Shown here in pieces: positions 14,764 through 33,037 of a stretch of 34,561 bases of DNA. How positions within the stretch are numbered: position 1 is the stretch's first letter; each line of letters opens with the position of its first letter. Made by a program: the position numbers and the translations under genes. This DNA is from an uncultured Pseudomonadota bacterium (GTDB lineage Bacteria; Desulfobacterota; Syntrophorhabdia; Syntrophorhabdales; Syntrophorhabdaceae), in the NCBI GenBank assembly GCA_937862865.1, contig CALMFJ010000164.1:1-34561 (forward strand). The letters are read 5' to 3'. The notes under the pieces are model-generated. The model saw nothing but the letters and a program-made list of their open reading frames with translations, had not been told where the DNA came from and did not search any database.

Positions 14764-15387
14764 TTATTCCGTACCGGGGACATCGCTTAACCGTTCGGAC
14801 AGGACACCCTTCTTGAATGATATCGCGGCCGAAATAACCTTATCCGCATATCCGTCATCCTTTGCGCCCAGGTATCTGTACAGCGCTGTCCTGAGATCAT
14901 TCTTCGAAGCGTTGAGGTACAGCCGGAGTATGGCGGTGCCCACAGACAGGTTCCTGTGAAGATCGTGGACCTCTTCCTCGGAAGAAAAATAGTGCTTCCA
15001 GGTCGGCCAGTGGACCTGCATGAGACCGCGGGCGTTCTTGCTGCTGACTGCATGCGGGTTAAAACAGCTCTCCACCCCTATGATTCCCATAATGACCGAC
15101 AAGAAATTGAGCCTGTGTTCATCGGAGGCGTACCGGAACCTTTTCTCGTGCACATGGTCGGTTATTGCTTTTGCCACAAAGACAGACGTGGCTTTCGCCT
15201 GTTTTTTGTTAACGCTCCGTATATGCCGCAGGGCATACCGGAAGTCTTTGTATCTGTCCGGGTCTTCTTTCCTCATGGCCTCAAGTTCATAGCGGACCTT
15301 CGAGAAATTGCTTTCATATGCCCTGCTGTAAGGAACTTTACAGGCCAGCAGGAAACAAACGAGGCCGGCAATGATCAGTATCTGCAA
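14764..15387 (-). CDS. Lytic transglycosylase (SLT family) lipoprotein
   Basis: 207 residues from TTG 15387. GGAGG lies seven bases upstream of this TTG, whereas an ATG at 15420 has its nearest ribosome site 15 bases away. From the TTG the protein begins with a short hydrophobic signal and a lipobox LLAC (Cys16), so it is likely anchored in the outer or inner membrane. The SLT catalytic motif GVESCFNPHAVSS (catalytic Glu at about 106) and ARGLMQVHWPTW follow, then the LSVGTAILRLYL and ALYRYLGA blocks of the fold. It cleaves peptidoglycan. Such small transglycosylases accompany conjugation and type IV secretion clusters, consistent with the genes that diverge from it, but a housekeeping role is also possible. 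Confidence 0.85.
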   Translation of the reverse strand: MQILIIAGLVCFLLACKVPYSRAYESNFSKVRYELEAMRKEDPDRYKDFRYALRHIRSVNKKQAKATSVFVAKAITDHVHEKRFRYASDEHRLNFLSVIMGIIGVESCFNPHAVSSKNARGLMQVHWPTWKHYFSSEEEVHDLHRNLSVGTAILRLYLNASKNDLRTALYRYLGAKDDGYADKVISAAISFKKGVLSERLSDVPGTE

Positions 15388-15572
15388 AACTCCGCCTCCC
15401 GACCGGCTCCATCCGGGCATCTTGTGCAGGATCGTCCTCCATATAGTGATATAGCGCGCACGCTAATCAAACGGGCTGTATCGGCAGTTTTTATTTTTTT
15501 GCCTGTTATTGCGCTATATTTTATCTTGACAACGTTTCCGGAAATATATTTTTATAAACATCATCAGTTGCT

Positions 15573-15595
15573 TTCCGCAGTAAATTCCGCAGTAA
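15573..15595. repeat. Two 11-base direct repeats upstream of the membrane-protein gene
   Basis: TTCCGCAGTAA occurs at 15573-15583 and again at 15585-15595, a 12-base period. It lies in the AT-rich divergent spacer (15388-15656) between the transglycosylase and the membrane-protein genes, 42 bases downstream of a TTGACA (15526-15531) followed by an AT-rich run. A regulator-binding or iteron-like role is possible. The rest of the spacer shows only AT-rich stretches and a small palindrome AGCGCGCACGCT (around 15453). Confidence 0.5.
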
Positions 15596-15656
15596 CTTAT
15601 CGCATAAGATCCAGATCAATATGTGCAGTGTTCCATGCATCGGGGGAGGGATTGCG

Positions 15657-16364
15657 TTGGAAAGAAGTACAGCAAAAAGTTCGGATAGTGTTGCGTATGT
15701 CATTGCAAGTCTCATCATTCTGGCATTGCTTGCTCTTTACGCATCGCGCAGCCTGATCGTCCTTCACAGGATCGAGTTGCCGGTCCTTGAGTTTCAGGCG
15801 CACCTTTACGCCCGGGTCTTGTCTCGCTCTGATTATGAGATGGAATTTTACAGGATCAGTGCGATCAGAGACGCGCTTGATGCCGAGTTCGTCAAGAGGG
15901 GCAGTTACACGGCGATCAGGTCAGATATGCTGAGAAAGGCCGTTGTATTCTCGTCCGTGCGCACGGGGCGGTGTACGCGTATCCTGGCATGCATCTTTCT
16001 CGGGTCTTTCGGCTCTATTATAACAGGGGTTGTCATGAGGGCCCGGGGGCGTCTCTACAGAACAAGGGACAATGTTCGCCGTTTGGAGCACAGGGGGGTT
16101 CACGGGTTTATTCATCTGGTCGGCGGGCATCTCGATTTCGATGCCATAGCACGTATCGAGAGATGTCCGACCCCCGAAAACCTGAGGAATGCCTTCACCG
16201 CCGTCCGTGAAAAGGTCAATGTACCGTGCTCGGTGGTAGCGCGCCTATTTCCGCGAGGGTCGGGGGAACGTCTGGCACTCCTGGAATACGGTAAGCCAAA
16301 GGTTAAATTCGCTGACAATCCAGAGAACGCCGGACGAGGTCCGGAAAACGAAAGGGGGACGTGA
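15657..16364 (+). CDS. Two-helix membrane protein, possible DotM/TrbA-like
   Basis: 235 residues from TTG 15657, chosen because GGGAGGG lies 7-8 bases upstream; ATG 15621 has no ribosome site. One membrane helix follows the short N-terminus (VAYVIASLIILALLALYAS, about 13-32), then a loop of about 70 residues, a second helix (ILACIFLGSFGSIITGVVM, about 110-128), then an arginine-rich start of a cytoplasmic C-terminal domain (RARGRLYRTRDNVRRL). This topology and the R-rich exit recall DotM/TrbA, which partners the DotL/TrbC coupling ATPase in type IVB systems; the sequence resemblance is weak and it is shorter than DotM (about 380). Its stop overlaps the next gene's GTG by four bases (GTGA). 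Confidence 0.5.
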   Translation: MERSTAKSSDSVAYVIASLIILALLALYASRSLIVLHRIELPVLEFQAHLYARVLSRSDYEMEFYRISAIRDALDAEFVKRGSYTAIRSDMLRKAVVFSSVRTGRCTRILACIFLGSFGSIITGVVMRARGRLYRTRDNVRRLEHRGVHGFIHLVGGHLDFDAIARIERCPTPENLRNAFTAVREKVNVPCSVVARLFPRGSGERLALLEYGKPKVKFADNPENAGRGPENERGT

Positions 16365-17002
16365 CAGCAGACATGGAAGCACAATCGTGGGCGAACACAG
16401 GCAGTGAGCGGGCGCAGGCCATGACGGTCTATATGAGGGCCTTTTTCCGGTCGATGAATACACAGGATTTTTCGAGTTTGATCATACACGCGCAGGAAGG
16501 CGGCCAACAGAAGATAGTCGAGGAATTATATTCGGCTGGAGTGGTAAGCAATATCGTCCGGGCGATCCTTGGAAGGATCGATAAGGGGCGCTCCATTGAT
16601 GACCAGATCAACGATTATGTTCAGGATGCAACGGTCGTTCTTATCCAGATCGCCCGGCAGGGGAGATTGGACCTGACCAAATCGGCAGGTGAGATCGCCT
16701 CGTATATTTGTCTCTGGATAGAGCAGAGGGTAAAGAGGGTTGCAAGAAAGGACCAGCGCTGGCGGTTTTCGCTGGCAGCCCTTTCAGGCAGCATAGAGAA
16801 TGTGCTTGAGGCGACTGAGGGGTGCGATAAGGACCTGGACGAGGTTTTGCCGGGGGAAGAGGCGGGCCCCGGACCATATATAGATACCGGAGCATGCGTG
16901 CAATTGCCCGAGCGATGGGCACAGGCAGGGCATCACGACCTTTTCGCGTTCACGCTCAACAAAAGCGAGCGCAACATACTGTCCATCTTCGGGTCATCGT
17001 AA
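16361..17002 (+). CDS. Sigma-70 region-2-like protein, lacking most of region 4
   Basis: 213 residues from GTG 16361, which overlaps the preceding stop (AGGGGG upstream; ATG 16373 is an alternative). Residues about 62-140 resemble sigma-70 region 2: a helical block, a DDQINDYVQDATVVLIQIA stretch in place of the usual D-LVQ-E-F, then ICLWIEQRVKRVARKDQRW, followed by SLAALSGSI. Near the C-terminus, LNKSERNILSIFGSS looks like the beginning of region 4 (L-x-ERxILxLRFG), but the protein stops there, so the DNA-binding helix-turn-helix is missing. It could be a truncated sigma factor, an anti-sigma-like or RNA-polymerase-binding accessory, or a coincidental likeness. It sits in a run with the membrane-protein gene before it and a winged-helix gene after it. 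Confidence 0.45.
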   Translation: MTADMEAQSWANTGSERAQAMTVYMRAFFRSMNTQDFSSLIIHAQEGGQQKIVEELYSAGVVSNIVRAILGRIDKGRSIDDQINDYVQDATVVLIQIARQGRLDLTKSAGEIASYICLWIEQRVKRVARKDQRWRFSLAALSGSIENVLEATEGCDKDLDEVLPGEEAGPGPYIDTGACVQLPERWAQAGHHDLFAFTLNKSERNILSIFGSS

Positions 17003-17078
17003 TCGGGAGGAAGACGAAAACAGACGAACGGAAATAACCCGTGATCACCGGAACATTTCGGGCCCCGGGGTCGCCGCA

Positions 17079-17423
17079 ATGACGGCGCACTATGTCCATC
17101 ACTACATGGCACCCCTGGGACCTTTCGTTTCCTCGGTATTTTTTTCGCTCATATTCAACTCCGGCGTGCATGGCGTAAGGCCGAATGCGTATATCAGGAG
17201 CGTGCAAATGTCCCTCGCAGGGATAGCCCGGAGGGCGGGAATGTCAAGGAGAAAGGGTGTTGACGCCCTGAAAACCCTGAAGGACTACAGGATCATCATG
17301 CAGTGTAACGGCCGGGGAAGAGGGAACCGGAACCGCTATTTTTTTCTCCCATGCGAGACGTGGTTTCTCCCCGATGCATCCCGGAAAGATGCGATGCGGG
17401 TCGATGATTGTCCGGCACAGTGA
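17079..17423 (+). CDS. Winged-helix/helix-turn-helix protein
   Basis: 114 residues. The stretch VQMSLAGIARRAGMSRRK (about 43-60) followed by GVDALKTLKDYRII and a basic GRGRGNRNRYFF wing fits the HTH_36-type domain often found in plasmid/phage replication or regulatory proteins. DNA binding is therefore likely; the target is unknown. The ATG at 17079 has no Shine-Dalgarno. A strong GGGAGG lies at 17006-17011 with no usable start just after it, and this reading frame is open back to at least 16980, so the gene could begin at an unusual codon or be joined to the sigma-like gene by frameshifting. It precedes the ParB-like gene. Confidence 0.5.
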   Translation: MTAHYVHHYMAPLGPFVSSVFFSLIFNSGVHGVRPNAYIRSVQMSLAGIARRAGMSRRKGVDALKTLKDYRIIMQCNGRGRGNRNRYFFLPCETWFLPDASRKDAMRVDDCPAQ

Positions 17424-17512
17424 AAAGACTCGCATTAATACGGCTCCGGGATGCACTTTTTAGCCCGTGCGATCCATTGATTTGTCTAAGCATTCATCTG
17501 ACGTTACAAAAA

Positions 17513-17530
17513 AGGCGGCATGTGCCTCCT
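17513..17530. promoter_or_regulatory. Imperfect inverted repeat upstream of the ParB-like gene
   Basis: AGGCGGCA-TG-TGCCTCCT is an inverted repeat with 7 of 8 arm bases matching. It abuts the stronger palindrome at 17530-17544. Confidence 0.35.
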
Positions 17531-17544
17531 GTACAAATTGTACA
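17530..17544. promoter_or_regulatory. Operator-like palindrome upstream of the ParB-like gene
   Basis: TGTACAA-A-TTGTACA is a perfect inverted repeat (7-base arms, 1-base centre) ending 34 bases before the ATG at 17579. It overlaps a TACACT that could act as a -10 element, so a bound protein would block transcription. I found no second copy in the window. The likely binders are the ParB-like protein itself or the winged-helix protein encoded just upstream. Confidence 0.5.
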
Positions 17545-17578
17545 CTTGAACGAATTCCGAAAAACCGGAAGGAGACAT

Positions 17579-18934
17579 ATGGACATAAAAGCTATTATGA
17601 TCGGAAAGCGGCACAGGACGAGCCTGGGAGACCTGGAATCCCTGAAAAGGTCAATATCCGAGGTGGGGCTCCTCCAGCCGGTCGTCGTCAGGAAGGGAAC
17701 AAATGAGCTCGTCGCGGGGTTTCGAAGGTTAAGGGCCCTGGAAGACCTGGGCATTACAGAACTGACGGATGGTGTTCATGTTCATTATATTGATATCGAC
17801 AGCATCATACGCGGCGAGCATGACGAGAACATATGCAGACAGGATTTTACGATATCTGAGAAAGTTGCCATTTTTGAGGCGATGAAGGAAGACCAGAAGC
17901 GGCTCGGGATCACACGCCGGATAATATCGGGGAAGGCGTCTACGCCTTCGAGCTCCATCATCGATCCGCATGGTCCGGAAAAGGCAGCGGGCGGGCATGG
18001 GTCCGCACGGGCTGATGCGGCCCGGGCGGTAGGCCTGCACTACAATACATTGAGGAAGGCGTCGGAGATCGTGTCGGCCGCGAGGAGGGACCCGGCACGA
18101 TACGACGGTCTGGTCAGGGAGATGGACCGGTCCGGGAAGGTCGATCCTATCTTCCAGAAGTACACGCAGGAAAGATTGCAGTCTGCCATGCATGAGAATG
18201 AACCGGCACCCGGCCTGTCATACCTGGCATCAGACAGGGGCGGCCCCCTTCCCAAATTCATTATCGATGCGCTGTCCCGGGTATCGCCCACCCTCCGGGA
18301 GGATCTGTTGCGGCGCCATAACGATGTTCTTCGGGCCCTCAAGCGAGGCGACGTCGAGCGATCGGTGAAGGTCTTTTCGAAGAAGTGCGACATCGGATCG
18401 ATGCCGGAGAACGATATCGCGCAGCTCGTCGGACATATCCTGCAGCACGCCGCCGCATCGGCCACGGAATGGGTCTTTCTTCCGCGGGTCCGGCAGATCG
18501 CCGCGGTAATAATGGGTGTTGCCAGAGCAAAGGAGCCGGCGTCGGTGCTCGATAAGCTCGATTTTTTTATGATCGGCCTCGCGGGTTTTGTTGACATGGC
18601 CTGCAACTATCTTCAGCTGGCGAATAAGGGCGGCATCCTCAAGGATATTCCTGCGGACGCTCTTGAAAAATATCTCGCCGCAATAGATGCCTTTCAGATG
18701 CTGTATGAGAGCAAACTGCCCCGGCAGGTGGGGGCGCTGAGGGCCCGGGAAACCCGTTCTGTCCCGGCTGACGGTATCCCCACCGTCCGCGATCATGTGA
18801 ATGCAATGAAGGCGAACGAGATGATAACGAACGCGGCGGAAGGTTCCATCCCCTACTACAGGAGCCTTGTGGCGGGCCTTGTGCAAAACTTCCGCGAAGG
18901 GGCGCAGAGCCTTAAGGAAGCAGGCCTGCCCTGA
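17579..18934 (+). CDS. ParB-like partition/nuclease-domain protein
   Basis: 451 residues from ATG 17579, chosen because GGAAGGAG lies just upstream; the frame is open further 5' but that part is not protein-like. Residues 1-95 form the ParB/Srx N-terminal domain: SLKRSISEVGLLQPVVVRKG (box I, in part) and AGFRRLRALEDLGI where canonical ParB has GERRxRA (Phe replaces Glu). Residues 140-205 hold the central helix-turn-helix part, with ADAARAVGLHYNTLRKASEIV. The C-terminal 230 residues are helical and unfamiliar. There is no ParA beside it, so it may be a regulator or solo partition factor of a plasmid-like element rather than the chromosomal ParB. It is the last gene of the accessory run, 54 bases before cysS. 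Confidence 0.78.
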   Translation: MDIKAIMIGKRHRTSLGDLESLKRSISEVGLLQPVVVRKGTNELVAGFRRLRALEDLGITELTDGVHVHYIDIDSIIRGEHDENICRQDFTISEKVAIFEAMKEDQKRLGITRRIISGKASTPSSSIIDPHGPEKAAGGHGSARADAARAVGLHYNTLRKASEIVSAARRDPARYDGLVREMDRSGKVDPIFQKYTQERLQSAMHENEPAPGLSYLASDRGGPLPKFIIDALSRVSPTLREDLLRRHNDVLRALKRGDVERSVKVFSKKCDIGSMPENDIAQLVGHILQHAAASATEWVFLPRVRQIAAVIMGVARAKEPASVLDKLDFFMIGLAGFVDMACNYLQLANKGGILKDIPADALEKYLAAIDAFQMLYESKLPRQVGALRARETRSVPADGIPTVRDHVNAMKANEMITNAAEGSIPYYRSLVAGLVQNFREGAQSLKEAGLP

Positions 18935-18944
18935 TGCAATTGCT

Positions 18945-18974
18945 TTGACAAGTCCGCGATAGCTATGGTAAATA
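18945..18974 (+). promoter_or_regulatory. Promoter of cysS
   Basis: A consensus TTGACA (18945-18950), 18-base spacer, TAAATA (18969-18974). Transcription would start near 18981, which excludes the upstream ATG at 18965 and supports ATG 18989 as the cysS start. Confidence 0.5.
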
Positions 18975-18988
18975 ATACGGTCAACGCT

Positions 18989-20434
18989 ATGGCTCTGAAG
19001 GTTTACAATACCATATCCGGAAAGAAAGAAGACTTTATCCCTGTGTCCGAGGGGAAAGTGAGGCTCTACGTCTGCGGCGTTACGGTGTATGACCACTGCC
19101 ATATCGGCCATGCGCGCAGTGCGATCGTTTTCGATACCATATACCGGTATCTGCGGTCGAAGGGCTACGACGTCACGTATGTCAGGAATTTCACGGATAT
19201 CGACGACAAGATAATCCGCAGGTCTCATGAGGAAAACATACCCTGGCAGGAAGTCGGGCGGAAATATATCGCTTCATTCTACGAGGACATGGATGCCCTC
19301 GGTATAATGCGGCCGACCCACGAGCCCCGGGCGACAGACCATATCGGCGACATGATAGCGCTTGTCGACTCGCTGATAAAAAAGGGGCACGCCTACAATG
19401 TCGACGGGGATGTCTATTTTTCCGTGGACAGCTTCAGGAAGTACGGCGAGCTTTCGAGACGGCCACTTGAGGAAATGATGTCCGGTGCCCGGGTGGAAGT
19501 TGACGAAAAAAAGAAGAATCCCCTCGATTTTGCCCTCTGGAAGGCATCGAAGGAAGGCGAGCCATCGTGGGACGCTCCGTTCGGGAAGGGCCGTCCGGGA
19601 TGGCATATCGAGTGTTCCGCCATGAGCACGCTGTTCCTTGGCAATCCTTTCGATATCCACGGCGGCGGAAAAGACCTTGTTTTCCCGCACCATGAGAATG
19701 AAAAGGCGCAGACCGAAGCCGCTACCGGTGAGAAATTCGTCAACTACTGGGTACATAACGGTTTCGTCAATATCGACCGGGAGAAGATGTCGAAGTCCAT
19801 CGGCAATACTCTTTCGATCAAGGATTTTCTCAAAGACTACCATCCCGAAGTTCTTCGGCTTTTTTATCTCTCGAACCACTATCGCAGCCCGGTTGATTAC
19901 AACGGGCAATCGATTGATGACGTCAATACGGCGCTCCAGCGGCTCTATTATAGCCGGCAAAGGGCCCTTGACGCCCAAAAGGGGAAAAGCTTCAAGGCCC
20001 GCAATTTCGAACAGGCTGATGAACTGAACAAGAAATTCCTCGAGGCCATGGATGATGATTTTAACACGGCCCTGGCGCTTTCATATGTTTTCGAGCTTTC
20101 AAAAGAGATCAACCGGATGGTGGATGAAAAAGACGCGAGCGCGACACCATTAATATCATCCGCAAACCAGATGCTGGAATCTCTTGCCGGTACGTTGGGG
20201 CTTCTGGAGGACAATTTCGAATCTTTTGAAAATCAGGCAAAAATGCGGCACCTTGCACGCATGGGCCTCGACGCCCCGTTCGTTGAGAATGCGATACATG
20301 ACCGGATCGAGGCGAGAAAGACGAAGAATTTTCAGAAGGCTGATGAGATAAGGAATGCGCTGGCCGAAAAAGGGATTATGCTTCTTGACACTCCTCAAGG
20401 TACACAGTGGCGGATAAAAACTTCAGTTTCTTAA
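18989..20434 (+). CDS. cysS: Cysteinyl-tRNA synthetase
   Basis: 481 residues, the usual length. Class I signatures: zinc-ligand Cys29 in YVCGVTVYD, HIGH at 38-41 (HCHIGHARS), and KMSKS at 266-270. GWHIECSAM and DIHGGGKDLVFPHHENE are further family blocks, holding the other zinc ligands. It charges tRNA-Cys in the cytoplasm. The start was set by a consensus promoter just upstream; the leader is only about 8 bases and has no clear ribosome site. The oxidoreductase gamma-subunit gene follows after 13 bases and probably shares the transcript. Confidence 0.97.
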   Translation: MALKVYNTISGKKEDFIPVSEGKVRLYVCGVTVYDHCHIGHARSAIVFDTIYRYLRSKGYDVTYVRNFTDIDDKIIRRSHEENIPWQEVGRKYIASFYEDMDALGIMRPTHEPRATDHIGDMIALVDSLIKKGHAYNVDGDVYFSVDSFRKYGELSRRPLEEMMSGARVEVDEKKKNPLDFALWKASKEGEPSWDAPFGKGRPGWHIECSAMSTLFLGNPFDIHGGGKDLVFPHHENEKAQTEAATGEKFVNYWVHNGFVNIDREKMSKSIGNTLSIKDFLKDYHPEVLRLFYLSNHYRSPVDYNGQSIDDVNTALQRLYYSRQRALDAQKGKSFKARNFEQADELNKKFLEAMDDDFNTALALSYVFELSKEINRMVDEKDASATPLISSANQMLESLAGTLGLLEDNFESFENQAKMRHLARMGLDAPFVENAIHDRIEARKTKNFQKADEIRNALAEKGIMLLDTPQGTQWRIKTSVS

Positions 20435-20447
20435 AAGGAGAATACAT

Positions 20448-20999
20448 ATGCTGGAAGTCAGATTTCATGGAAGGGGCGGACAGGGAGCCGTCACATCTGC
20501 GGAGATCATAGCCCAGGCTGCTATCAAACAGGGGATGAGCGCACAGGCTTTCCCCAGTTTCGGCCCCGAGCGCCGCGGTGCTCCGGTGCAGGCGTTCCTG
20601 CGCTTATCGGACAGACCGATCCGGTTGAGATCGAAAGTGTACAAACCCGACAGTGTCCTGATACTCGACCCGACCCTCGTCGAATCGGCGAACCCTACGG
20701 CGGGGCTTAAGGAAGGCGGCTACATTGTCATCAATTCAAACAAATCGGTAGAAGAGCTGAAGAAAATGTTTCCCGGGCAGAACATCGTTGCCGTGGATGC
20801 GACGAAGATAGCCAAGGAAGAGCTCGGTGTTCCCATCACGAACACGACAATGCTCGGTGCACTCATCCGTGCGACGAAGGCCGTTGAGCTGAACGCCCTT
20901 GAAGAACCGGTTCGTAGCCGTTTCGGGGCCAACGGCCAGAAGAATATCAACGCGTACACCCGGGCATTTAACGAAGCGATAACAATAAACGCCGGGTAG
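20448..20999 (+). CDS. 2-oxoacid:ferredoxin oxidoreductase gamma subunit
   Basis: 183 residues, a full-length gamma domain. The family motifs are FHGRGGQGAVTSAEIIAQAA at the N-terminus and FPSFGPERRGAPVQAFLR. In pyruvate (or 2-ketoisovalerate) ferredoxin oxidoreductases this subunit works with delta, alpha and beta subunits to oxidise 2-oxoacids to acyl-CoA with reduced ferredoxin, an anaerobic reaction. Here it stands alone: after it comes a strong terminator and then ade, and no alpha, beta or delta gene is in the window. AAAAGGAG precedes the ATG. Confidence 0.9.
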   Translation: MLEVRFHGRGGQGAVTSAEIIAQAAIKQGMSAQAFPSFGPERRGAPVQAFLRLSDRPIRLRSKVYKPDSVLILDPTLVESANPTAGLKEGGYIVINSNKSVEELKKMFPGQNIVAVDATKIAKEELGVPITNTTMLGALIRATKAVELNALEEPVRSRFGANGQKNINAYTRAFNEAITINAG

Positions 21000-21026
21000 T
21001 CTAAGAACGCAAAAGGCATTGCGAGA

Positions 21027-21093
21027 TAACCGCCAGCTGCCGGATGATCGATGAATATGTTCATCCATTGGGTCGCTGCCGGTTATTTTTTTA
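21027..21093 (+). terminator. Strong intrinsic terminator between the gamma-subunit gene and ade
   Basis: ATAACCG-C-CAGC (21027-21038) pairs with GCTG-C-CGGTTAT (21076-21087), one C/C mismatch, and ends in a run of seven T. The loop contains a second perfect hairpin, GATGAA-TATG-TTCATC (21051-21066). Only about 40 bases separate it from the ade ATG, too little for a clear independent promoter, so it may act as an attenuator as well. Confidence 0.8.
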
Positions 21094-21135
21094 TCCCTGC
21101 ACAATGCAGACGGGGGCAGTCCAGAGAAGGGGTTC

Positions 21136-22758
21136 ATGACGAGCATATCGGGCAATATTGTCGACATCCATAACGAGACCATCTTTCCCGGCACGGTCCG
21201 CATAGAGAACGGCATCATTGCAGGGGTCGGGAGAGAACGTTACTGGGCGGACAGGTATATCCTGCCCGGTTTCGTGGATGCGCATGTCCACATCGAGAGC
21301 TCCATGCTCACGCCTGTTGGTTTTGCGCGGCTCGCCGCGGTCCACGGGACGGTAGCAGCGGTGTCGGACCCGCACGAGATCGCGAACGTCCTGGGCATAT
21401 GGGGGATCGACTACATGATAGAGAGCGCCTCCGGTGTCCCCTTTGTGTTTTCGTTTGGAGCCCCGTCCTGTGTACCGGCGAGCCCCTTCGAAACGTGCGG
21501 CGCCCATATCGGCCCAGCTGAGGTCGAGGAACTGCTGGGCCGATCTGACATCGGGTATCTGGGTGAAATGATGAACTACCCGGGGGTCATCAGCGGCGAC
21601 CCTGAAGCGATCGCAAAGTTAAGGGCCGCAAAGGCGGCCGGTAAACCGGTCGACGGCCATGCGCCGGGATTGCGCGGCGAGGCGCTCAGGAGATATATAG
21701 AAGCAGGCATATCGACAGACCATGAATCATTCGAGATCGAAGAGGCTCGGGAGAAGTTGTCCCTCGGTATGAAGATACTCGTACGGGAGGGGTCGGCGGC
21801 CAGAAATTTTGACACGCTCTTCCCGCTGATAGCGGACCATCCCGGACAGTGCATGCTTTGCAGTGATGACACGCACCCCGATATGCTGGTGCGCGGGCAT
21901 ATCAACCTGCTTGTTGAGCGGGCAGTCCGTGGGGGGATCGATCTCATGAAGGTGCTCAGGTGCGCGTGTCTTAATCCCGTCGAGCATTACAGGCTTAATG
22001 TCGGCCTGCTGCGCATTGGGGACCCCGCGGACATGATCGTTGTCGACAACCTCGAGTCCTTCAATGTGTTGATGACGATCATACGCGGACAGGTTGTTGC
22101 GGAGGACGGGGTGAGCAGGATCGCACATGCGTCGCCGAAGCCCATCAACATTTTCAGTGCCGCAGCGAAACGGCCGGGTGATTTCCGGATCCAGGGAACA
22201 TCGGGACGGGTCCGCGTCATCGAGGTTATAGAGGGCCAGGTGGTTACCGGTTCCTCAACCGGGAGCGTTCCCGTGAAGAACGGAGAGCTCGTTTGCGATA
22301 CAAACAAAGACCTTCTCAAGATATCCGTCGTCAACCGGTATTCTGACGGACCGCCCGCCGTTGCATTCGTTCGAGGGTTTAACCTGAAAAAAGGCGCGAT
22401 AGCTTCCTCAATAGCGCATGATTCACACAATATCGTTGCGGTCGGAACCTCGGATGACATGCTCTGCGAGGCCGTGAATTGCGTTATCGAGAAAAGAGGA
22501 GGGATCTCGCTTGTCTCTGACGACATGAAGATGGTGGTGTCCCTGCCGGTGGGCGGGATAATGTCCGATGACGACGGCTACAGCGTCGCGCGGAAATATA
22601 GCCGCATGAACGCACTTGCCCGCGAACTCGGGTGCTCGCTTGATGCGCCTTTTATGACGCTTTCGTTTATGGCGCTCATTGTCATCCCAAAGCTGAAACT
22701 CAGCGACCAGGGCCTTTTTGACGGCGAGCGCTTCGCGTTCACAGACCTTTTTCTGTAA
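21136..22758 (+). CDS. ade: Adenine deaminase
   Basis: 540 residues, within the normal range. An amidohydrolase-fold enzyme that converts adenine to hypoxanthine and ammonia in purine salvage. The metal-binding HxH is in FVDAHVHIESSML (H50, H52); DPHEIANVLG, DGHAPGL and SDDTHPDML supply further ligands (His, Asp) and are characteristic of Ade rather than of other amidohydrolases, as is the C-terminal MSFxxL-type domain (APFMTLSFMALIVIPKLKLSD, in part). AAGGGG three bases before ATG supports the start. It converges with the GGDEF/HD-GYP gene, leaving 7 bases. Confidence 0.95.
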   Translation: MTSISGNIVDIHNETIFPGTVRIENGIIAGVGRERYWADRYILPGFVDAHVHIESSMLTPVGFARLAAVHGTVAAVSDPHEIANVLGIWGIDYMIESASGVPFVFSFGAPSCVPASPFETCGAHIGPAEVEELLGRSDIGYLGEMMNYPGVISGDPEAIAKLRAAKAAGKPVDGHAPGLRGEALRRYIEAGISTDHESFEIEEAREKLSLGMKILVREGSAARNFDTLFPLIADHPGQCMLCSDDTHPDMLVRGHINLLVERAVRGGIDLMKVLRCACLNPVEHYRLNVGLLRIGDPADMIVVDNLESFNVLMTIIRGQVVAEDGVSRIAHASPKPINIFSAAAKRPGDFRIQGTSGRVRVIEVIEGQVVTGSSTGSVPVKNGELVCDTNKDLLKISVVNRYSDGPPAVAFVRGFNLKKGAIASSIAHDSHNIVAVGTSDDMLCEAVNCVIEKRGGISLVSDDMKMVVSLPVGGIMSDDDGYSVARKYSRMNALARELGCSLDAPFMTLSFMALIVIPKLKLSDQGLFDGERFAFTDLFL

Positions 22759-22765
22759 ATATTTC

Positions 22766-24541
22766 TTAAGATACGATCTTGACGAACGTGGCGACGAGTT
22801 CAGGATCGAACTGCCTGCCCGCGCATTCTTTCAATTCCTGGAGGGCTTTTTTCCTGGAGATGGCCTTGCGGTGCGGCCTGCCGGCCGTCATTGCCTCATA
22901 GGCGTCGGCGATCGCCATGATCCGGCTTTCAAGGGGAATGTCCTCACCCGAAAGGCCTAAGGGGTACCCGGCCCCGTTCCACCATTCGTGGTGCTTGAGG
23001 ATATATTCCGATATATGGGTCAGGTTTGCTGACGACTGGGCAATGCGGTGGCCTATGTCGCAATGTTTGCGCATCTCGAGAAGTTCTTCCTGGGTGAGGC
23101 TCCCTTCTTTGAGAAGTGTCCGGTGATGAACGCCGATATTTCCTATATCGTGAAATTGCGCAAGGAGAACGAGGTCCTTCATTCGTTTTTCCGGCAAACC
23201 GACTGCATTTCCCAGGGCCGTGACCAGTTTTTTCAGCCTGCGCGCCGAATGCTGTGTGGTTATACCGATGTCCTCGATCGTGGCGAGAAGATTTTTCACG
23301 ATCACTCCCCGGAACTGCTGGCTTCCAAACAGTTTTTCCTTGTACATGTTGTTGTCGGCTTCGCGGTACAATTCGGTCATACCCTGACCGGGGCTGCTGC
23401 GGATCGAGAAGCCGATGGAGATACCGAGGGGAAGATTACGGTTCTTCCTGTTATAATCCGCAATGCTGCTCTTTATCCGGGCGCATATTTCTTCGACCTT
23501 GGAACGCGGCGTGTTGGGCAGGAGGACGGCAAACTCATCGCCCCCGACACGCGCGACGACGTCGTTTTCGCGGAACGATCTCCGGATGATCTGCGACGCC
23601 CTCATGAGCAGTTCATCGCCCCTCTCGTGCCCGAGCGTGTCATTGATCAGCTTCAACCCGTCCACGTCGCACATGATAAGGCCGACCAGCTCAAAACGGC
23701 TATTGTCGAGGCGGTGCATTTCCTCCTCGAAGTATGCACGGTTGTAAAGGTTTGTCAGGGGATCGTGAAGGCTCAGATACTTCAGCTTCTCTTCTGTTTT
23801 TTTCAGCTCTGTAATGTCTTTTGATATAACGGCGACATATTTTGTCTCCCCGGTTTTCGGGTCAGGTATCGGGCTCAACGTTCTCAATGTACACCGCTTC
23901 CCATTGTCGCTCTTGTGCTCATAGCTCAGGGACGTGTTCCATTCAAATATTTTTTCCACGTGACCCGCAAAATCGAAGGCATCATCGGCATTGTGAAAGT
24001 CGGCGTAACGCCTTCCTATTATATCGGATTCATCAACGCCAAGGCGCCTGACCGCCTGCCGGTTGACAAAGAGATACCTGCAATCCCGGTCCATCATATA
24101 GACCGAATCTTCAGTGGATTCGATAAGCGAGCGGTATTTTTCCTCGCTCAGGCTTATCCGTTTCCCGGCCCTGACATATTCGGTAATGTCAATGAATGAC
24201 ACGGCCGTGTACCCGGCGCCCTTCAGCCCGTTGCGTATTATCAGCACATCCCTGACCGACCCGTCCTTCAGCGCCAGCTTAAAATTCGTGCTTTGGGCGG
24301 TGCCGGGGCCATTGGGGCCGGTAAACTCCTGGTGTTCTTTCGTCGTGGTCAGGTCGCCGCCGACAACGAGTTCCGGCCATTTTTTCTTTTGTATGTCGCC
24401 CTTCCCGTATTTTGAAAGTTTGAGAAACTGCCGGTTTGCGTGGAGTATCGTCCCGTCGGGATCGGCGATTATCGCGGCTATTTCCGACGATTCGAAAAAG
24501 GCCTGATGTATGTCACTTCTGTCCAAATTCTTGTGGGCCAT
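22766..24541 (-). CDS. PAS-GGDEF-HD-GYP cyclic-di-GMP signalling protein
   Basis: 591 residues, cytoplasmic (no membrane helix seen). Two PAS domains (about 10-130 and 135-255) precede a GGDEF domain (about 265-420) and an HD-GYP domain (about 425-591). GGDEF is intact, and the inhibitory I-site RxxD is present five residues before it (RENDVVARVGGDEF). In the HD-GYP part, HDIGNIGV and HHEWWNGAGYP are present. So one protein carries both c-di-GMP synthase and phosphodiesterase modules, sensed by PAS; which activity dominates is unknown. It is likely transcribed alone from a TATACT promoter at 24560-24589. Confidence 0.92.
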   Translation of the reverse strand: MAHKNLDRSDIHQAFFESSEIAAIIADPDGTILHANRQFLKLSKYGKGDIQKKKWPELVVGGDLTTTKEHQEFTGPNGPGTAQSTNFKLALKDGSVRDVLIIRNGLKGAGYTAVSFIDITEYVRAGKRISLSEEKYRSLIESTEDSVYMMDRDCRYLFVNRQAVRRLGVDESDIIGRRYADFHNADDAFDFAGHVEKIFEWNTSLSYEHKSDNGKRCTLRTLSPIPDPKTGETKYVAVISKDITELKKTEEKLKYLSLHDPLTNLYNRAYFEEEMHRLDNSRFELVGLIMCDVDGLKLINDTLGHERGDELLMRASQIIRRSFRENDVVARVGGDEFAVLLPNTPRSKVEEICARIKSSIADYNRKNRNLPLGISIGFSIRSSPGQGMTELYREADNNMYKEKLFGSQQFRGVIVKNLLATIEDIGITTQHSARRLKKLVTALGNAVGLPEKRMKDLVLLAQFHDIGNIGVHHRTLLKEGSLTQEELLEMRKHCDIGHRIAQSSANLTHISEYILKHHEWWNGAGYPLGLSGEDIPLESRIMAIADAYEAMTAGRPHRKAISRKKALQELKECAGRQFDPELVATFVKIVS

Positions 24542-24559
24542 TCCTTGAGAACTCTTTCG

Positions 24560-24589
24560 AGTATATCACGCGATTCTTGATATTGCTAA
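24560..24589 (-). promoter_or_regulatory. Promoter candidate for the GGDEF/HD-GYP gene
   Basis: Minus-strand TTAGCA (24589-24584), 18-base spacer, TATACT (24565-24560), about 20 bases before the ATG. The short leader carries ACTC-GAAA-GAGT, a small hairpin. Confidence 0.4.
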
Positions 24590-24606
24590 TATTATACCCG
24601 TGTTAC

Positions 24607-26013
24607 TCATCTTTTTTTAGAACCGTCCGGTCCCTTGAATACCTTGCCGGGGTTTAGAAGACCTTTCGGATCGAAGGCATCCTTGACCCTTTTCATGAGA
24701 GGCAGAACCTCTCCGCCAAGCTGCAGGGGAAGATAATCCATGACCGTCAGTCCGACGCCGTGTTCGCCTGTAAGGGAACCTCCCATCGCAACCGTTTCGC
24801 GGTAGATCTGTTCGAGCAGACGGTACGCCTCGTCAAGCTCCGCAAAATTCCTGCGCCGATAGAGTATCGTCACATGAAGATTGCCGTCCCCTGCATGGCC
24901 GTATGTGGCTATCCGCAGCGCATCGCCGTGTTTGAGGTTTCGCACGAACCGGACGAGAAAAGGGAGCTTATACCGGGGAACGGCGACATCCGCCTCCAGG
25001 TGGTCTTTGCCCAGGGCCTTAAGCGACGGCAGCACTTCCCTGCGCGAGAGCCAGAACCTGTCGGCCTCCGCATCGTCGGCGGCAAGGTGCACATCGAATG
25101 TCCCGGGAGCATTCCTGCACAGGGCGTGCAACTCGCGGGCCTCATTGTCGACTGCGTCCTCGCTGTGCCCGTCGATCTCGATGAGGACCATTGCGGCGGC
25201 CGTGCGGTCAAGGGGGATGTTCAAATAACCGGCCACGGTGTTTATCGCGATTGTATCCATCAACTCCACCGCACAGGGCATAATGCCGGTCCTGAATACC
25301 GCCACGATGAGGTCGGCCGCCGACACCAGGTCATCGAGGTAAGCAACGATTGTCCGGCGGACGCGCGGCCGTGTCAGGATACGCAGCGTGATCTTCGTAA
25401 TAACAGCGAGTGTCCCCTCCGAGCCAGTTATAAGCGAGATGAGGTCGTATCCCGCAACATTCTTGAGCGTTTTCCCGCCGAGGGTTATTGTCTCGCCCGA
25501 TGGGAGTACGGCTTCAATGCCGCGTACATAATCCCGGGTCACGCCGTATTTTACCGCGCGGGTGTATCCTGCATTCTCCGCCACATTTCCCCCGAGTGTA
25601 CTGTCGACGGTGCTTGACGGGTCCGGCGGGAAGAAGAGCCCCCGTTCGTTCAAGGCCTTTTGAAGGTCGTTGGATATGACCCCTGGTTCCACGACGGCAA
25701 ACATGTTCGCCTCGTCTATCTCGAGGATCCGGTTCATCCGCGGGAATGCGAGGACAACGCCGCCGGTTACCGGCACCGCGCCTCCCGACAGGCCCGTCCT
25801 TCCTCCCTGCGGAGTGACCGCGACATTGTGCATAGAACAGCATCGCATGATCCGCGAAACCTGTTCCGTATTCTCGGGCAGGACAGCTGCCTGCGGCAGC
25901 GAATGCCTTTCCGTCGCGTCATATGAAAAGTGAGAGAGATTATCCTTATCGGTGATGATCTGGTCTTCTTTGAGGAAGTTTCCTATTTCGCGCAAGAAGT
26001 CGTCAAAGGCCAT
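24607..26013 (-). CDS. FAD-binding oxidase, glycolate oxidase GlcD-like
   Basis: 468 residues. The FAD-binding_4 (PCMH-type) domain fills the first half: TPQGGRTGLSGGAVPVTGG, PDPSSTVDSTLGGNVAENAG (in part) and YDLISLITGSEGTLAVIT. The C-terminal half is FAD-oxidase_C: YGHAGDGNLHV, GEHGVG and DPKGLLNPGKVF. These are typical of GlcD, D-lactate dehydrogenase and 2-hydroxyacid oxidases. No GlcE/GlcF-like iron-sulfur partner is in the window, so substrate and electron acceptor are unknown. It lies downstream of the peptidase gene, with a 67-base gap, on the same strand. Confidence 0.9.
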   Translation of the reverse strand: MAFDDFLREIGNFLKEDQIITDKDNLSHFSYDATERHSLPQAAVLPENTEQVSRIMRCCSMHNVAVTPQGGRTGLSGGAVPVTGGVVLAFPRMNRILEIDEANMFAVVEPGVISNDLQKALNERGLFFPPDPSSTVDSTLGGNVAENAGYTRAVKYGVTRDYVRGIEAVLPSGETITLGGKTLKNVAGYDLISLITGSEGTLAVITKITLRILTRPRVRRTIVAYLDDLVSAADLIVAVFRTGIMPCAVELMDTIAINTVAGYLNIPLDRTAAAMVLIEIDGHSEDAVDNEARELHALCRNAPGTFDVHLAADDAEADRFWLSRREVLPSLKALGKDHLEADVAVPRYKLPFLVRFVRNLKHGDALRIATYGHAGDGNLHVTILYRRRNFAELDEAYRLLEQIYRETVAMGGSLTGEHGVGLTVMDYLPLQLGGEVLPLMKRVKDAFDPKGLLNPGKVFKGPDGSKKR

Positions 26014-26080
26014 ACTTCGTCAATTATATCCGTCAGGCCCCGAAGGAGCAACAGAATTAGCTCGCACGGCGAGCGACCTG

Positions 26081-27283
26081 TCATACGTAAACGATGTCGA
26101 GCGGAGTTTTCGTCAGCCTCTCAAGCCCGTCTTTTCGCACCACAAAATCCACTTCAATTCCTATTGCGCCCTCGCCGGGGAAGATGAACTTCGGCTCGAA
26201 GGCGAAGACCATGCCTTCCTTCAAGAGTATCTTGTGGCGCGGAGTGATGACCGGCAGTTCGTTGATCTCGAGCCCGAGGCCGTGGCCGATGAATGCGACC
26301 TGGCCCTCTCCATGCCCCATGAAATGGGCTTCGAGGCCCGCCTCCTTCACGCGCTTGAAAGCCCTTCCGAAAATTTCGGTCCCGTCGATGCCTTCCTTTG
26401 CGAAGCCCATCGTCTCTTCGATGATCTCCCGGGAGACCTCGAAGGGTTTATGGAAGACGTCTTTGAGCGGTCCCGTTGCGTATGCCCGTGTCTCGTCGGT
26501 GATGTACCCGTTGTAGCCTCCCCCGTAGTCGACGATCACGGGGACGCCGTGCCTGACCACATTGACGGATGCGCCCTGTCCGATGGCGTGGGTGAGCCCG
26601 ATGCCGGATATCGGGACATCGGCGCCCGAGGTCACCGTCGTCGAATACCCGTGGGTGACGTAGCAGCTCATCATTTCCTGGTTGAGGCCCCGCATCCTCA
26701 AAAATCCCTGGTGCCCCCGCTTTCTGCCTTCGGCAAGAAGCTCCGCATCGATATCGACCTCGCGGATGCCTTCTCTTATTATGGTCTTTGCCTTTTCGAA
26801 GACGCGCTCGCAGATTGCGCCCGATTTCCTGAGCTGTTCGATCTCGAATTCGCTCTTCGTGATCTTGCAGTCACGGATGATCGCGGAGAGGTCGCCGACA
26901 TCGGCGAGCCCCAGCAGCGATTTCCATCTTTGATATATCGCGACGGGGACGACATCGAGTTCCATTGCACACCGCGCCGGGTACATCTTCTTTTCGACCA
27001 GTATATCCTTTACCTCTTTGTCCCGCTTGATGGGAATGATCTCGAGAGGGGTCTCGATCCGTGCGCGGTAGAGGCTCTTCTCGACGAAGAACGCCGGGCC
27101 GTGCTCCGCGGATACCGCGAGGACCCCGCGCTGGAGCGTTCCCGTGAAATACAGGATATCGACGTTCTGGAGAATGATCGCAAGCTCGATGCCCTGCGCC
27201 GCCATCCCTGCACGAAGCTTGTCGATCCGTGCGTCTATCTCGTATCCCGGTGTGAGATCACCGGTGTTTAGCGTCTTCAACAT
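26081..27283 (-). CDS. Xaa-Pro peptidase (M24 family)
   Basis: 400 residues from ATG 27283, set by GGAGG ten bases upstream; this ATG lies inside proS, so the two genes overlap by 26 bases. The creatinase-like N-terminal domain (about 1-170) precedes the pita-bread M24 domain. The five metal ligands of a dinuclear peptidase are visible: two Asp in VDYGGGYNGYITDETRAY (about residues 251-268), His in FIGHGLGLEIN, Glu in AFEPKFIFPGEG, Glu in GIEVDF. It should release N-terminal residues before proline, or cleave Xaa-Pro dipeptides. Coupling to the prolyl-tRNA synthetase gene makes a proline-recycling theme likely but unproven. Confidence 0.9.
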   Translation of the reverse strand: MLKTLNTGDLTPGYEIDARIDKLRAGMAAQGIELAIILQNVDILYFTGTLQRGVLAVSAEHGPAFFVEKSLYRARIETPLEIIPIKRDKEVKDILVEKKMYPARCAMELDVVPVAIYQRWKSLLGLADVGDLSAIIRDCKITKSEFEIEQLRKSGAICERVFEKAKTIIREGIREVDIDAELLAEGRKRGHQGFLRMRGLNQEMMSCYVTHGYSTTVTSGADVPISGIGLTHAIGQGASVNVVRHGVPVIVDYGGGYNGYITDETRAYATGPLKDVFHKPFEVSREIIEETMGFAKEGIDGTEIFGRAFKRVKEAGLEAHFMGHGEGQVAFIGHGLGLEINELPVITPRHKILLKEGMVFAFEPKFIFPGEGAIGIEVDFVVRKDGLERLTKTPLDIVYV

Positions 27284-28973
27284 AGCGTATGATCCTCCCG
27301 GCCGCCTCTGCAACAGGCACCTTTTCAAAGTCTTTGCTCTCGCGTCTCTTTATCTCGACGATGCCTTCTTTAAGCCCCCGCTCGCCGATGGTCACCCGAA
27401 GGGGTATCCCGATCAGGTCGCAATCCTTGAACTTAACGCCCGGACGCTCATCGCGGTCGTCCATGACCACGTCGATCCCCTTGCTCAAGAGCTCTTCATA
27501 TATGGCCCCGGCAACGTTCATGCTCTCGTCGTGGCCCGTGTTGACGGGAAGGACATCGACCTCGAACGGGGCGATAGGAATGGGCAGTATCATGCCGTTC
27601 TCGTCGTTCCCCTGTTCGATCGCCGCTGCGACGGTCCTGCCGACGCCGATCCCGTAGCACCCCATGATCATGAACTGCTCCTTGCCTTCGTTGTCGAGGA
27701 AGGTCGCGTTCATGGCCTGCGAATATTTGAGGCCGAGCTTGAAGATGTGCCCGACCTCGATGCCTCGTGTCGCAACGAGCTTGCCGCTATCGCACCGGGG
27801 GCACCCGTCCCCGGCGACGGCAACCTTTATATCGTAGAAGCCCTTCACGGTAAAATCGCCGAGGTTGGCGTCGACGACGTGAACGTCGCGCTCGTTGCCG
27901 CCGATAACGAAGTTTTCCATGAACTTGAGGTCCATGTCCGCGTAAAGGGGTATTGTGAGGCCGATGGGCCCGGAGAAGCCGAGCAGGCCTCCCGTGACCT
28001 CCTCGATCGTCCGCTCGTCCGCAAGCTCGAGCGAATCGAGCTTCAGGAGGTTCTTCAGTTTCGTGTCATTTATCTCGCGGTCGCCGCGGACGAGGACGCC
28101 GATGACCCCCTGGTCTGTATTGTAGATGATCGTTTTGAGGAGTCTGTCCGGGGTTATCCCGAGGAATTTCGAGACCTCGTCTATCTTGCGCTGGCCGGGT
28201 GTCGGCACGCGTTTGCTGAGGCCGGCTTTCGCGCCCGGAGGCTCGATCCCCGTGACACCGACCTCGGCCCTTTCCAGGTTCGCGGCATACCCGCACGCAT
28301 CGCAGGATATAATGATGTCCTCCCCGGTGTCCGCGAGCACCATGAACTCGTGGGAAAAGCTCCCGCCGATCTGCCCGGTGTCCGCCTCGACGACGCGGAA
28401 TTTGAACCCGCACCGCTCGAAGATGCTGACGTACGCCTCGTACATGTCCTTGTAGCTTTTCTCCGCCGCCGGCTCGTCCGCATCGAAGCTGTACGCGTCC
28501 TTCATCGAGAACTCACGGGAGCGCATTATGCCGAAGCGGGGGCGTATCTCATCCCGGAACTTGTTCTGGATCTGGTACAGGTTGACGGGCAGGTCCTTGT
28601 ATGATTTTACCTCGCGCCGCACGAGGTCGGTGACGACCTCCTCGTGCGTGGGCCCGAGGCACAGTTCGCGGTTGTTCCGGTCGACAAAGCGCAGGAGCTC
28701 CTTGCCGTATTTCTCCCAGCGCGTGCTCTCGACCCACAGCTCCTTCGGCTGGACCGCCGGCATGAGTATCTCCTGGGCCCCCTTCCTGTTCATCTCTTCG
28801 CGGATGATCCGCTCGACCTTCCTGAGTGACCGCAAACCGAGGGGAAGCCATGTGTACACGCCCGATGCGAGGCGCCGTATGAAACCCGCCCGGAGCATCA
28901 GCCGATGGCTCGCTACCTCGGCTTCCTTCGGGTCTTCTTTAACAGTCGGAATGAACATTTTGGAAAACAGCAT
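27258..28973 (-). CDS. proS: Prolyl-tRNA synthetase (bacterial type)
   Basis: 571 residues, the same as the usual bacterial type (about 572). A class II synthetase with the bacterial INS editing domain inserted between motifs 2 and 3 (GVIGVLVRGDREINDTKLKNLL, in part), which hydrolyses mischarged Ala-tRNA-Pro. Signatures: LPLGLRSLRKVERIIREEMNR at motif 1, FRDEIRPRFGIMRSREFSMKDAYSF (in part) at motif 2, and GIGVGRTVAAAIEQ at motif 3. No T-box-like leader is evident, only a plain promoter about 85-110 bases upstream. The peptidase gene overlaps its end. Confidence 0.97.
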   Translation of the reverse strand: MLFSKMFIPTVKEDPKEAEVASHRLMLRAGFIRRLASGVYTWLPLGLRSLRKVERIIREEMNRKGAQEILMPAVQPKELWVESTRWEKYGKELLRFVDRNNRELCLGPTHEEVVTDLVRREVKSYKDLPVNLYQIQNKFRDEIRPRFGIMRSREFSMKDAYSFDADEPAAEKSYKDMYEAYVSIFERCGFKFRVVEADTGQIGGSFSHEFMVLADTGEDIIISCDACGYAANLERAEVGVTGIEPPGAKAGLSKRVPTPGQRKIDEVSKFLGITPDRLLKTIIYNTDQGVIGVLVRGDREINDTKLKNLLKLDSLELADERTIEEVTGGLLGFSGPIGLTIPLYADMDLKFMENFVIGGNERDVHVVDANLGDFTVKGFYDIKVAVAGDGCPRCDSGKLVATRGIEVGHIFKLGLKYSQAMNATFLDNEGKEQFMIMGCYGIGVGRTVAAAIEQGNDENGMILPIPIAPFEVDVLPVNTGHDESMNVAGAIYEELLSKGIDVVMDDRDERPGVKFKDCDLIGIPLRVTIGERGLKEGIVEIKRRESKDFEKVPVAEAAGRIIRYVEDAKHR

Positions 28974-29135: not shown

Positions 29136-29244
29136 CAGACATTCGGGGGGAAGATCGGGAACCCTGACGCCTGAGGACGTGGGCGGCTGACAGCGGGAAG
29201 GACAGGCCGCTTCCGGCGCGGCACCGGGCTATTCTATTCCATGA

Positions 29245-30978: not shown

Positions 30979-31242
30979 CTACCAGTTGACCTTGATGACA
31001 TTGCCCACGTCAAGGCCGCAGTTATGCAAGGTGCTGACAGCTACGGATGAGAGTGTTTTGTAGGATGTCAGGCATGACCCGATAATAATGAGCTTTCCGC
31101 CCCCGCTGCCGCCCTTCGCCGCTTCGTTGCCGTGTGCCAGCCGGATAAGCCCCCTGATTATAAGGAAGACCCCGATTACCGGTATGACAGGTGAAACGGT
31201 CGACTGGGCATTGTTCAAGAATTCCATGATCATTTCAGTCAT
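30979..31242 (-). CDS. Small two-helix membrane protein, opposite strand in the T4SS cluster
   Basis: 87 residues. AAGAGG lies six bases before ATG, so it looks like a real gene. Two hydrophobic helices (VSPVIPVIGVFLIIRGLIRL, about 16-35, and LIIIGSCLTSYKTLSSVAV, about 51-69) flank a basic/glycine-rich loop (HGNEAAKGGSGGGK). Small proteins with this topology are typical of the IcmC/DotE, IcmD/DotP and VirB2/TraC-like components of type IV systems. No specific family can be assigned. It is the only minus-strand gene in the cluster, facing the coupling ATPase and diverging from the DotI-like gene. Confidence 0.6.
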   Translation of the reverse strand: MTEMIMEFLNNAQSTVSPVIPVIGVFLIIRGLIRLAHGNEAAKGGSGGGKLIIIGSCLTSYKTLSSVAVSTLHNCGLDVGNVIKVNW

Positions 31243-31303
31243 ATGAAACCTCTTTGTCGATGAATGCTGCTATTTAACATATAGCAAAGAGGGAGTTTAT
31301 CCG

Positions 31304-31984
31304 GTGAAAGAAGAAACAAAAGTTCCGCGTGTTAAAGAAGACAGCCGGGCGCTCGCCATTGAAATAGGGGTGTTCAAAGGTCTCAGGTTTTCTTCGACAG
31401 CCCTCATCGTGCTCCCCGCGGCGACGCTGGCGCTGTCCATGATGATCGTTATGGCATCGATCGTGATCGTTGCGGTGGGCAAGGGGAAGGATAAGATTGT
31501 GTTTATGGATGCAACGGGCCGGCCGTCATTGATCCGGGTCGATGACCCGGACAGAATATACTGGCCGGAGCTCGAGATCTTCTGCAAGGATGCCATAAAG
31601 GACATCCTTGCATGGACGTATGTTGAAGTGAAATCGAAGGAGGACCTTGCCGGCAGGATGGCCCGTATGTCGCGCCATTTCGATCCCGCAGCATTCAGGG
31701 CATTTTACGAGCCCTACAAAGACAATTACCTCAAATCGCTGTCAGACCAAAAACTGGTCGTGACCGCCGAATGGCATAATCTCAAAGACGCGAAGTTGCA
31801 CGGGAAGGAGGCCGTCGTTCTCGTGGCGGTAAGGTTAAACGCGGTACGCGTTGTCGGTGAGGAGGCTGCCAGTGCTGATATCAAGACCAAGATATATGAG
31901 ATAAAGCTATATAAAGGAGTGCGCAGTGTGGAAAACCCTTTTGGCCTTTACATTGTTCGTTTTTCTGAGCCTGCCGGCGGCTGA
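31304..31984 (+). CDS. DotI/IcmL (TraM)- or TraE/VirB8-like inner-membrane protein
   Basis: 226 residues from GTG 31304, with GGGAG eight bases upstream. One membrane helix (about 32-58, LIVLPAATLALSMMIVMA) follows a 30-residue cytoplasmic start; the remaining 165 residues are periplasmic. That arrangement, with an alpha+beta domain (helices near ELEIFCKDAIKDILAWTYV and FDPAAFRAFYEPY, strands near KLVVTAEWHNLKDA) and a final ENPFGLYIVRF, fits the VirB8 fold shared by type IVA TraE/VirB8 and type IVB DotI/TraM. Position between the coupling ATPase and a VirB9/DotH-like gene supports DotI. The family call is from topology and gene order, not from a search. It overlaps the next gene by 59 bases in another frame. 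Confidence 0.6.
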   Translation: MKEETKVPRVKEDSRALAIEIGVFKGLRFSSTALIVLPAATLALSMMIVMASIVIVAVGKGKDKIVFMDATGRPSLIRVDDPDRIYWPELEIFCKDAIKDILAWTYVEVKSKEDLAGRMARMSRHFDPAAFRAFYEPYKDNYLKSLSDQKLVVTAEWHNLKDAKLHGKEAVVLVAVRLNAVRVVGEEAASADIKTKIYEIKLYKGVRSVENPFGLYIVRFSEPAGG

Positions 31985-33030: not shown

Positions 33031-33037
33031 GGAGCGA

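Follow-up and report, generated by a model that had tools for sequence, protein, structure and literature searches.

The DNA considered here, an entire contig (C164, 34,561 bases; "the window") from a 2.64 Mb, 96.5% complete assembly (G000) of the anaerobe Syntrophorhabdus, carries two runs of genes separated by a block of housekeeping genes. The first, at 14.7–18.9 kb, comprises genes for a lytic transglycosylase, a membrane protein, two small conserved proteins, and an orphan ParB-family protein (the ParB run); the second, headed by a coupling ATPase, belongs to a type IV secretion system (T4SS) resembling those of mating-pair formation type I (MPF_I), or Dot-like, systems. Comparison with other Syntrophorhabdus genomes (G001–G011, the congeners) makes it probable, on balance, that the ParB run serves this chromosomal and domesticated T4SS, resident in the genus, as its accessory and regulatory arm, since the two runs have the same distribution, hold fixed positions at the block ends, have descended congruently, have a promoter-proximal GCTATT element in common, and in one case have decayed together. 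A literature search at title and abstract level found no published description of a T4SS in Syntrophorhabdus.

The T4SS run opens with the coupling ATPase gene (29245–30921, + strand), 10.3 kb from the end of parB, in line with the 10 kb given in the initial annotation. Its product is of the IncI TrbC/DotL type that characterizes MPF_I, or type IVB, secretion systems: residues 95–544 match the NCBIfam model TrbC_conju (E 7.1e-64, below the curated 800-bit equivalog cut-off), and identity among congeners is 79–86%. It is followed by a gene for a small membrane protein, divergent from the DotI-like gene (30979–31242, − strand; DUF6750, E 0.008), for which the equivalent intergenic stretch is conserved in relatives, and then by genes, all on the + strand, for a DotI/IcmL-like protein (31304–31984; Pfam E 2.1e-4), a weakly DotH/IcmK-like protein (31926–32789; Pfam E 0.1, VirB9 E 0.02, and gene order), a weakly DotC/TraI-like lipoprotein (33017–33676; E 0.065 for a homologue against T4SS_TraI), and two more membrane proteins, the second weakly pilin-like (33683–34547). 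The continuation of the run, found on contig C125 of this genome, encodes a DotB-like ATPase, a VirB4-like ATPase, a TrbI/DotG-like protein (E 0.018 against TrbI), and three related VirB5-like proteins, the latter assigned by eye. The matches of the MPF_I-specific DotI, DotH, and TraI/DotC proteins, like that of the DotG-like protein, all lie below curated cut-offs; the gene order is consistent with MPF_I, and ATPases of the VirB4/TraU and DotB types are both present (PF00437, E 1.3e-48; P-loop_TraG, E 4e-8), with both orthologues on C125.

In four congeners (G002, G005, G006, and G010) the system extends to a secretin, a PilP-like protein (assigned by eye), and PilB/PilT-type ATPases, none of which turned up on the window genome's contig C125. 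In the same four, the DotB-like gene is separated from the first VirB5-like gene by a Phd/YefM-PIN toxin-antitoxin pair together with a gene of the Fic family (L053:7426–9282 in G002); these were not seen at that place in the window genome. Three tandem secreted proteins in G002, VirB5-like by eye (L053:9481–12365), have a similar C-terminal stretch, which suggests a duplication. The mad8 ATPase model of a defence system also matches the coupling ATPase (E 6.5e-29), other such matches being generic or weak; this is read as shared ATPase homology, and a defence system was rejected.

The five genes of the ParB run lie where the initial annotation had put them, and their order is conserved across the genus, beyond chance. 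The first encodes an SLT-family lytic transglycosylase (14764–15420, − strand; Pfam SLT, E 5.8e-13), with orthologues of 53–66% identity at the same place in the six congeners with a complete gene; the G005 copy is interrupted by a contig end. It had been described as a transglycosylase lipoprotein, of which the enzyme stands but the lipoprotein is not general, a lipobox-like LLAC being found in the window copy only. An SLT domain encoded together with a T4SS is the pattern of the T4SS lytic transglycosylases, and a VirB1-like role may be proposed on this basis. In seven congeners (G002, G003, G005–G008, and G010) a further gene of ~110–140 aa, here called X, is conserved 5′ of the transglycosylase gene, between it and the membrane-protein gene, and probably forms one operon with it; the window lacks X.

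The next gene (15657–16364, + strand) encodes a protein of no known family, with two hydrophobic stretches that are probably transmembrane and with orthologues in seven congeners (41–48% identity). Its true start is probably the TTG at 15657 rather than 15621, since the corresponding codon is GTG in all eight relatives and in most of them follows a clear AGGAGGG-type site. A suggested likeness to DotM was not borne out: there is no Pfam or NCBIfam match and no relevant PDB match, DotM included, and profile comparison with one IncI TrbA, the DotM homologue of those plasmids, failed (hhalign 0.1%). In a by-eye comparison of intergenic sequences, used here also for the palindromes and the small divergent gene, a TTGACA (15526–15531, + strand) conserved in relatives was found that could belong to a promoter for this gene and the two after it.

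The first of these two (16361–17002, + strand) encodes a conserved protein of 213 residues (orthologues 47–54% identical), here called the 16361 protein, that had been called sigma-like. As a sigma factor it was rejected: Pfam sigma families are absent for all seven homologues, PDB comparison was negative, hhalign against E. coli sigma factors gave 0.1–0.3%, and region 4 is absent. The best alignment, statistically insignificant, is nevertheless in register with sigma region 2.1–2.4 (DYVQDA...WIEQRVK), so the protein may be a diverged fragment of sigma region 2; a single-sequence AlphaFold model was uninformative (pLDDT 35). The second (17079–17423, + strand) encodes a small putative winged-helix protein, with orthologues of 48–56% identity. 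Helix-turn-helix (HTH) matches agree with this earlier description but are weak (HTH_43, E 0.04; PDB winged-HTH regulators, E 0.02–0.9).

The last gene of the run, parB (17579–18934, + strand, starting at ATG 17579 and not TTG 17408), encodes a 451-aa protein with a genus-specific C-terminal region. Its description as ParB-like was correct (ParB_N, E 7.6e-8; phrog ParB, E 1.6e-20; PDB ParB, E 4.8e-7). The N-terminal domain has the motifs GLLQP, GxRR, and DENxCR, whose residues are invariant across the genus alignment, and is followed by an HTH, the arrangement (C-motif, GxRR, P-loop, HTH) by which the protein can be placed in the ParB-CTPase family. No ParA was found among the window's Pfam matches, and the adjacent ParA of a ParABS partition system is accordingly missing. 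The region upstream of parB (17424–17578) has conserved palindromic sites: TGTACAAATTGTACA in the window (17530–17544, unstranded), with AATTGTACA conserved in most relatives, and sites of the GTGCATCCTGTGCA type in relatives. These form a possible autoregulatory site. A ParB operator common to the T4SS was considered and rejected; the TGTACA-type site found conserved upstream of parB has no evident conserved counterpart at the T4SS heads. A second ParB-family gene, an open frame of 294 aa, lies on contig C101. Outside chromosomes, the search of plasmids gave just three weak ParB records, and that of viral contigs only relatives of the ParB N-domain; proteins on IMG/VR contigs L133 and L134 are 37–38% identical to the N-terminal region alone.

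Both runs appear to be confined to the genus. Among 60 sampled relatives (11 congeners and 49 genomes outside Syntrophorhabdus), strong coupling-ATPase matches were found in 10 of the 11 congeners, that in G009 being a fragment, and in none of the 49 others. For the eleventh, G011, the contig is masked with N, so that its apparent loss of the ATPase carries no evidential weight. The next-best matches among 395 genomes of the phylum were 29–33% identical, and in a sample of ~400 the full-length ParB-like protein was found in Syntrophorhabdus only. The ParB run adjoins cysS in all nine genomes in which cysS and its flank are assembled (G000, G002, G003, and G005–G010); G001, G004, and G011 yielded no complete parB and no cysS, implying that the contigs concerned are missing or masked. 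At the other end the coupling ATPase gene adjoins proS in seven genomes, part of the block being rearranged in G008. The adjacency and co-occurrence check in related genomes came out in favour of an association.

The housekeeping block itself (18965–28973; cysS-porG-ade-GGDEF/HD-FAD oxidase-M24-proS) is outside the system. Four genomes of sister genera (G018, G027, G032, and G035) keep the order cysS-porG-ade-GGDEF-FAD oxidase-M24-proS without either run, and in a fifth (G029) the block is the same except that porG was not found and the gap is larger. Since the block is contiguous where both runs are lacking, the housekeeping genes are most likely ancestral, with the runs added at their two ends in the lineage leading to Syntrophorhabdus; the genes that flank the block in sister genera were not found beside the runs in Syntrophorhabdus. 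The initial annotation, which had suggested one transfer system separated by the genes from cysS to proS, therefore needs revision: the block is no insertion, and the two runs are likely one system, resident rather than split.

Within the genus, both runs have been inherited vertically, judging from the sequence comparisons. Protein distances for the core block, the ParB run, and the two T4SS halves are correlated at 0.90–0.996 among congeners. The trees agree on a clade of G002, G005, G006, and G010, and on G003 as its neighbour where that genome is represented, and their disagreements are confined to close relatives: G000 groups with G009 for the core block and ParB run, or with G004 for the T4SS. 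This congruence argues for vertical inheritance and not for an integrative and conjugative element (ICE). Codon usage in both runs is like that of core genes, with somewhat lower GC3. No PF03432 relaxase was found in the 96.5% complete G000 assembly and no TrwC in the genus, TraI_2 matches being below cut-off only; no integrase is among the window's Pfam matches, and in place of the sporadic distribution of an ICE there is a fixed position genus-wide. All this counts heavily against the presence here of an element that was mobile until recently, and the "plasmid/ICE-flavoured" label once attached to the ParB run is not sustained, given that there is no integrase nearby, that the genome yielded no relaxase, that inheritance is vertical, and that codon usage is ameliorated.

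A link between the runs is suggested by the hexamer GCTATT. All 4096 6-mers were scanned over ≤60 nt upstream of 14 T4SS- and ParB-run genes and eight core genes, a 6-mer being scored as conserved if at least 70% of genomes had it. Only GCTATT was conserved before four heads, those of the coupling ATPase, DotI, the first VirB5-like protein, and gene X, and before none of the eight core heads; the 6-mers that reach two heads all overlap it, and any others reach at most one. By direct inspection it is present before the coupling ATPase and DotI genes in 10 of 10 genomes each and before the first VirB5-like gene in 8 of 8. In the window it precedes the coupling ATPase gene (29228–29233, + strand) and is part of a near-palindromic element, GCTATTTAACATATAGC (31269–31285, unstranded), between the two divergent genes, where GCTATT is conserved in 10 of 10 genomes. 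A degenerate copy, GCTATA, lies 35 nt before the transglycosylase start (15450–15455, − strand); at the equivalent place seven relatives have GCTATT or GCTATC, before gene X. No −35-like partner was found at a fixed spacing. A genome-wide search with the pattern gave no more matches in total than a backwards control, and only its zero-mismatch sites cluster at the T4SS; almost all of these belong to the DotI head, the source of the pattern. One apparent site, before gene 15163, was discarded as independent evidence because it encodes the conserved VirB4 C-terminus, which makes the search weaker than it appears.

Two congeners have lost parts of the T4SS. In G009 the two runs have decayed jointly, the T4SS being deleted and the ParB run pseudogenised: the coupling ATPase gene carries a frameshift near residue 22, with a match that stops at residue 179 and adjoins the remnant of a late T4SS gene, and VirB4 is absent from the genome, while parB and the 16361 gene contain stops and the membrane-protein gene is frameshifted; the winged-helix gene has no stop within its match. 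In G008, a 100% complete genome, VirB4 is also absent. There, at L063:7369–15794, the toxin-antitoxin pair is followed by ~7 kb of other DNA, then by what is left of the first VirB5-like gene, a stub of 65 residues, and by fragments of Fic; such remnants suggest a recent loss.

If the ParB run is indeed the accessory arm of the T4SS, the transglycosylase would open the peptidoglycan for the apparatus, as VirB1 does, and the ParB-CTPase protein, the winged-helix protein, and the 16361 protein would control expression of the T4SS in the manner of VirB of Shigella. On its motifs, and with no ParA in the window, the ParB-family protein would be expected to regulate rather than to partition. Several observations weigh against this interpretation. 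The regulatory roles of the 16361 and winged-helix proteins are suggested by weak similarities, and vertical inheritance is equally expected for two unrelated chromosomal loci. The GCTATT motif was found after the fact, first by eye and then in the 6-mer scan; it precedes the X-transglycosylase unit and is absent before the membrane-protein and parB heads, so that what it connects with the T4SS is the transglycosylase and not the regulators. Joint decay is seen in one lineage only, and what speaks most against a close dependence of the two runs is that G008, without the second half of its T4SS, has an intact ParB run; either its loss is recent or the ParB run has an independent role.

A first alternative is that two unrelated genus-core loci happen to flank the same housekeeping block and that the ParB run has an independent chromosomal function. 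Congruent trees are what any two core loci should give, G008 has kept the run despite a half-lost T4SS, and two of its heads are without GCTATT. Such a coincidence would however have to explain why the T4SS heads and the transglycosylase operon have this element in common, why both runs decayed in G009, why a VirB1-type enzyme is found in the ParB run, and why the same lineage acquired both, one at either end of a single block; it is considered unlikely, though worth keeping in mind.

As to function, because no relaxase was found in the window genome, the machine would more plausibly deliver protein on contact than conjugate, and contact-dependent protein delivery is tentatively preferred, at somewhat less than even chances; it has been argued that most T4SSs lacking a relaxase secrete protein (PMC3158045), and the type IVB secretion system (T4BSS) of Pseudomonas putida kills competitors (PMC9519443). 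A fuller and more speculative version, quite unlikely to hold in every part, is a domesticated relaxase-less MPF_I machine whose transcription depends on an orphan ParB-CTPase clamp, a one-domain sigma-like protein, and a winged-helix protein, with GCTATT as their private promoter element, and which delivers to partner or rival cells on contact in methanogenic communities.

A second alternative, judged improbable, is a resident DNA-release machine like the T4SS of the gonococcal genetic island, with ParB in a membrane relaxosome. In both, genes for a ParB and a transglycosylase lie close to a chromosomal T4SS, since the gonococcal island too encodes a transglycosylase, but its T4SS is of MPF type F and the one here of type I. 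Gonococcal ParA and ParB facilitate the secretion of single-stranded DNA (PMC8716806). The gonococcal system employs ParA and the TraI relaxase, neither of which was found here (in the window for ParA, in the genome for the relaxase).

The third, an ICE or integrated conjugative plasmid, still active or in decay, with ParB serving partition, has very little left in its favour and is largely refuted, for although the coupling ATPase is closest to TrbC of IncI plasmids, an R64-like secretin and PilB/PilT-type ATPases also occur in relatives, and a ParB-family gene is found on an IncI plasmid, this is outweighed by the missing relaxase (this genome), integrase, and ParA (window), the fixed position, the vertical descent, and the core-like codon usage.

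Among known systems, the plasmid family IncI/R64 (MPF_I) has the same kind of coupling ATPase (~24–32% identity to plasmid TrbC proteins), DotI-, DotH-, DotC-, and DotB-like parts, and, in the Syntrophorhabdus relatives, the secretin and PilB/PilT-like ATPases. In contrast to it, the Syntrophorhabdus system is chromosomal and genus-fixed, without a relaxase found in this genome; its VirB4-like ATPase matches TraG/TraC-type models, and most of its structural proteins match weakly. Dot/Icm of Legionella and Coxiella and the T4BSS of P. putida IsoF are likewise chromosomal MPF_I-type machines, and in P. putida too the system and housekeeping trees are congruent (PMC9519443). They differ in that the host here is a member of the Desulfobacterota, the system is known from its genes alone, and an accessory run includes an orphan ParB. 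VirB, a relative of partition proteins that switches on Shigella virulence genes and their secretion system (PMC10770331), and KorB of RK2, described as a ParB-family regulator (PMC11790492), are of the same ParB-CTPase family. The protein here, with no adjacent ParA and with C-motif, GxRR, and P-loop-like motifs, differs from them in its long genus-specific C-terminal region, and its regulatory role is putative.

Chromosomal MPF_I systems were considered rare in a 2011 survey, being essentially the Dot/Icm systems of Legionella and Coxiella (PMC3158045). If the interpretation preferred here is right, a genus-fixed MPF_I system in syntrophic Desulfobacterota would be a conjugation machine turned resident outside pathogens, and the ParB-family protein and common cis-element would offer handles on T4SS control. 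A contact-dependent interaction within syntrophic consortia is suggested, and is testable.

Genes for PF03432 relaxases do occur on other contigs in four congeners (G006:C120, G006:C17, G006:C24, G008:C55, G005:C181, and G010:C41); the resident machine could act in trans to mobilise separate mobile elements that carry them.

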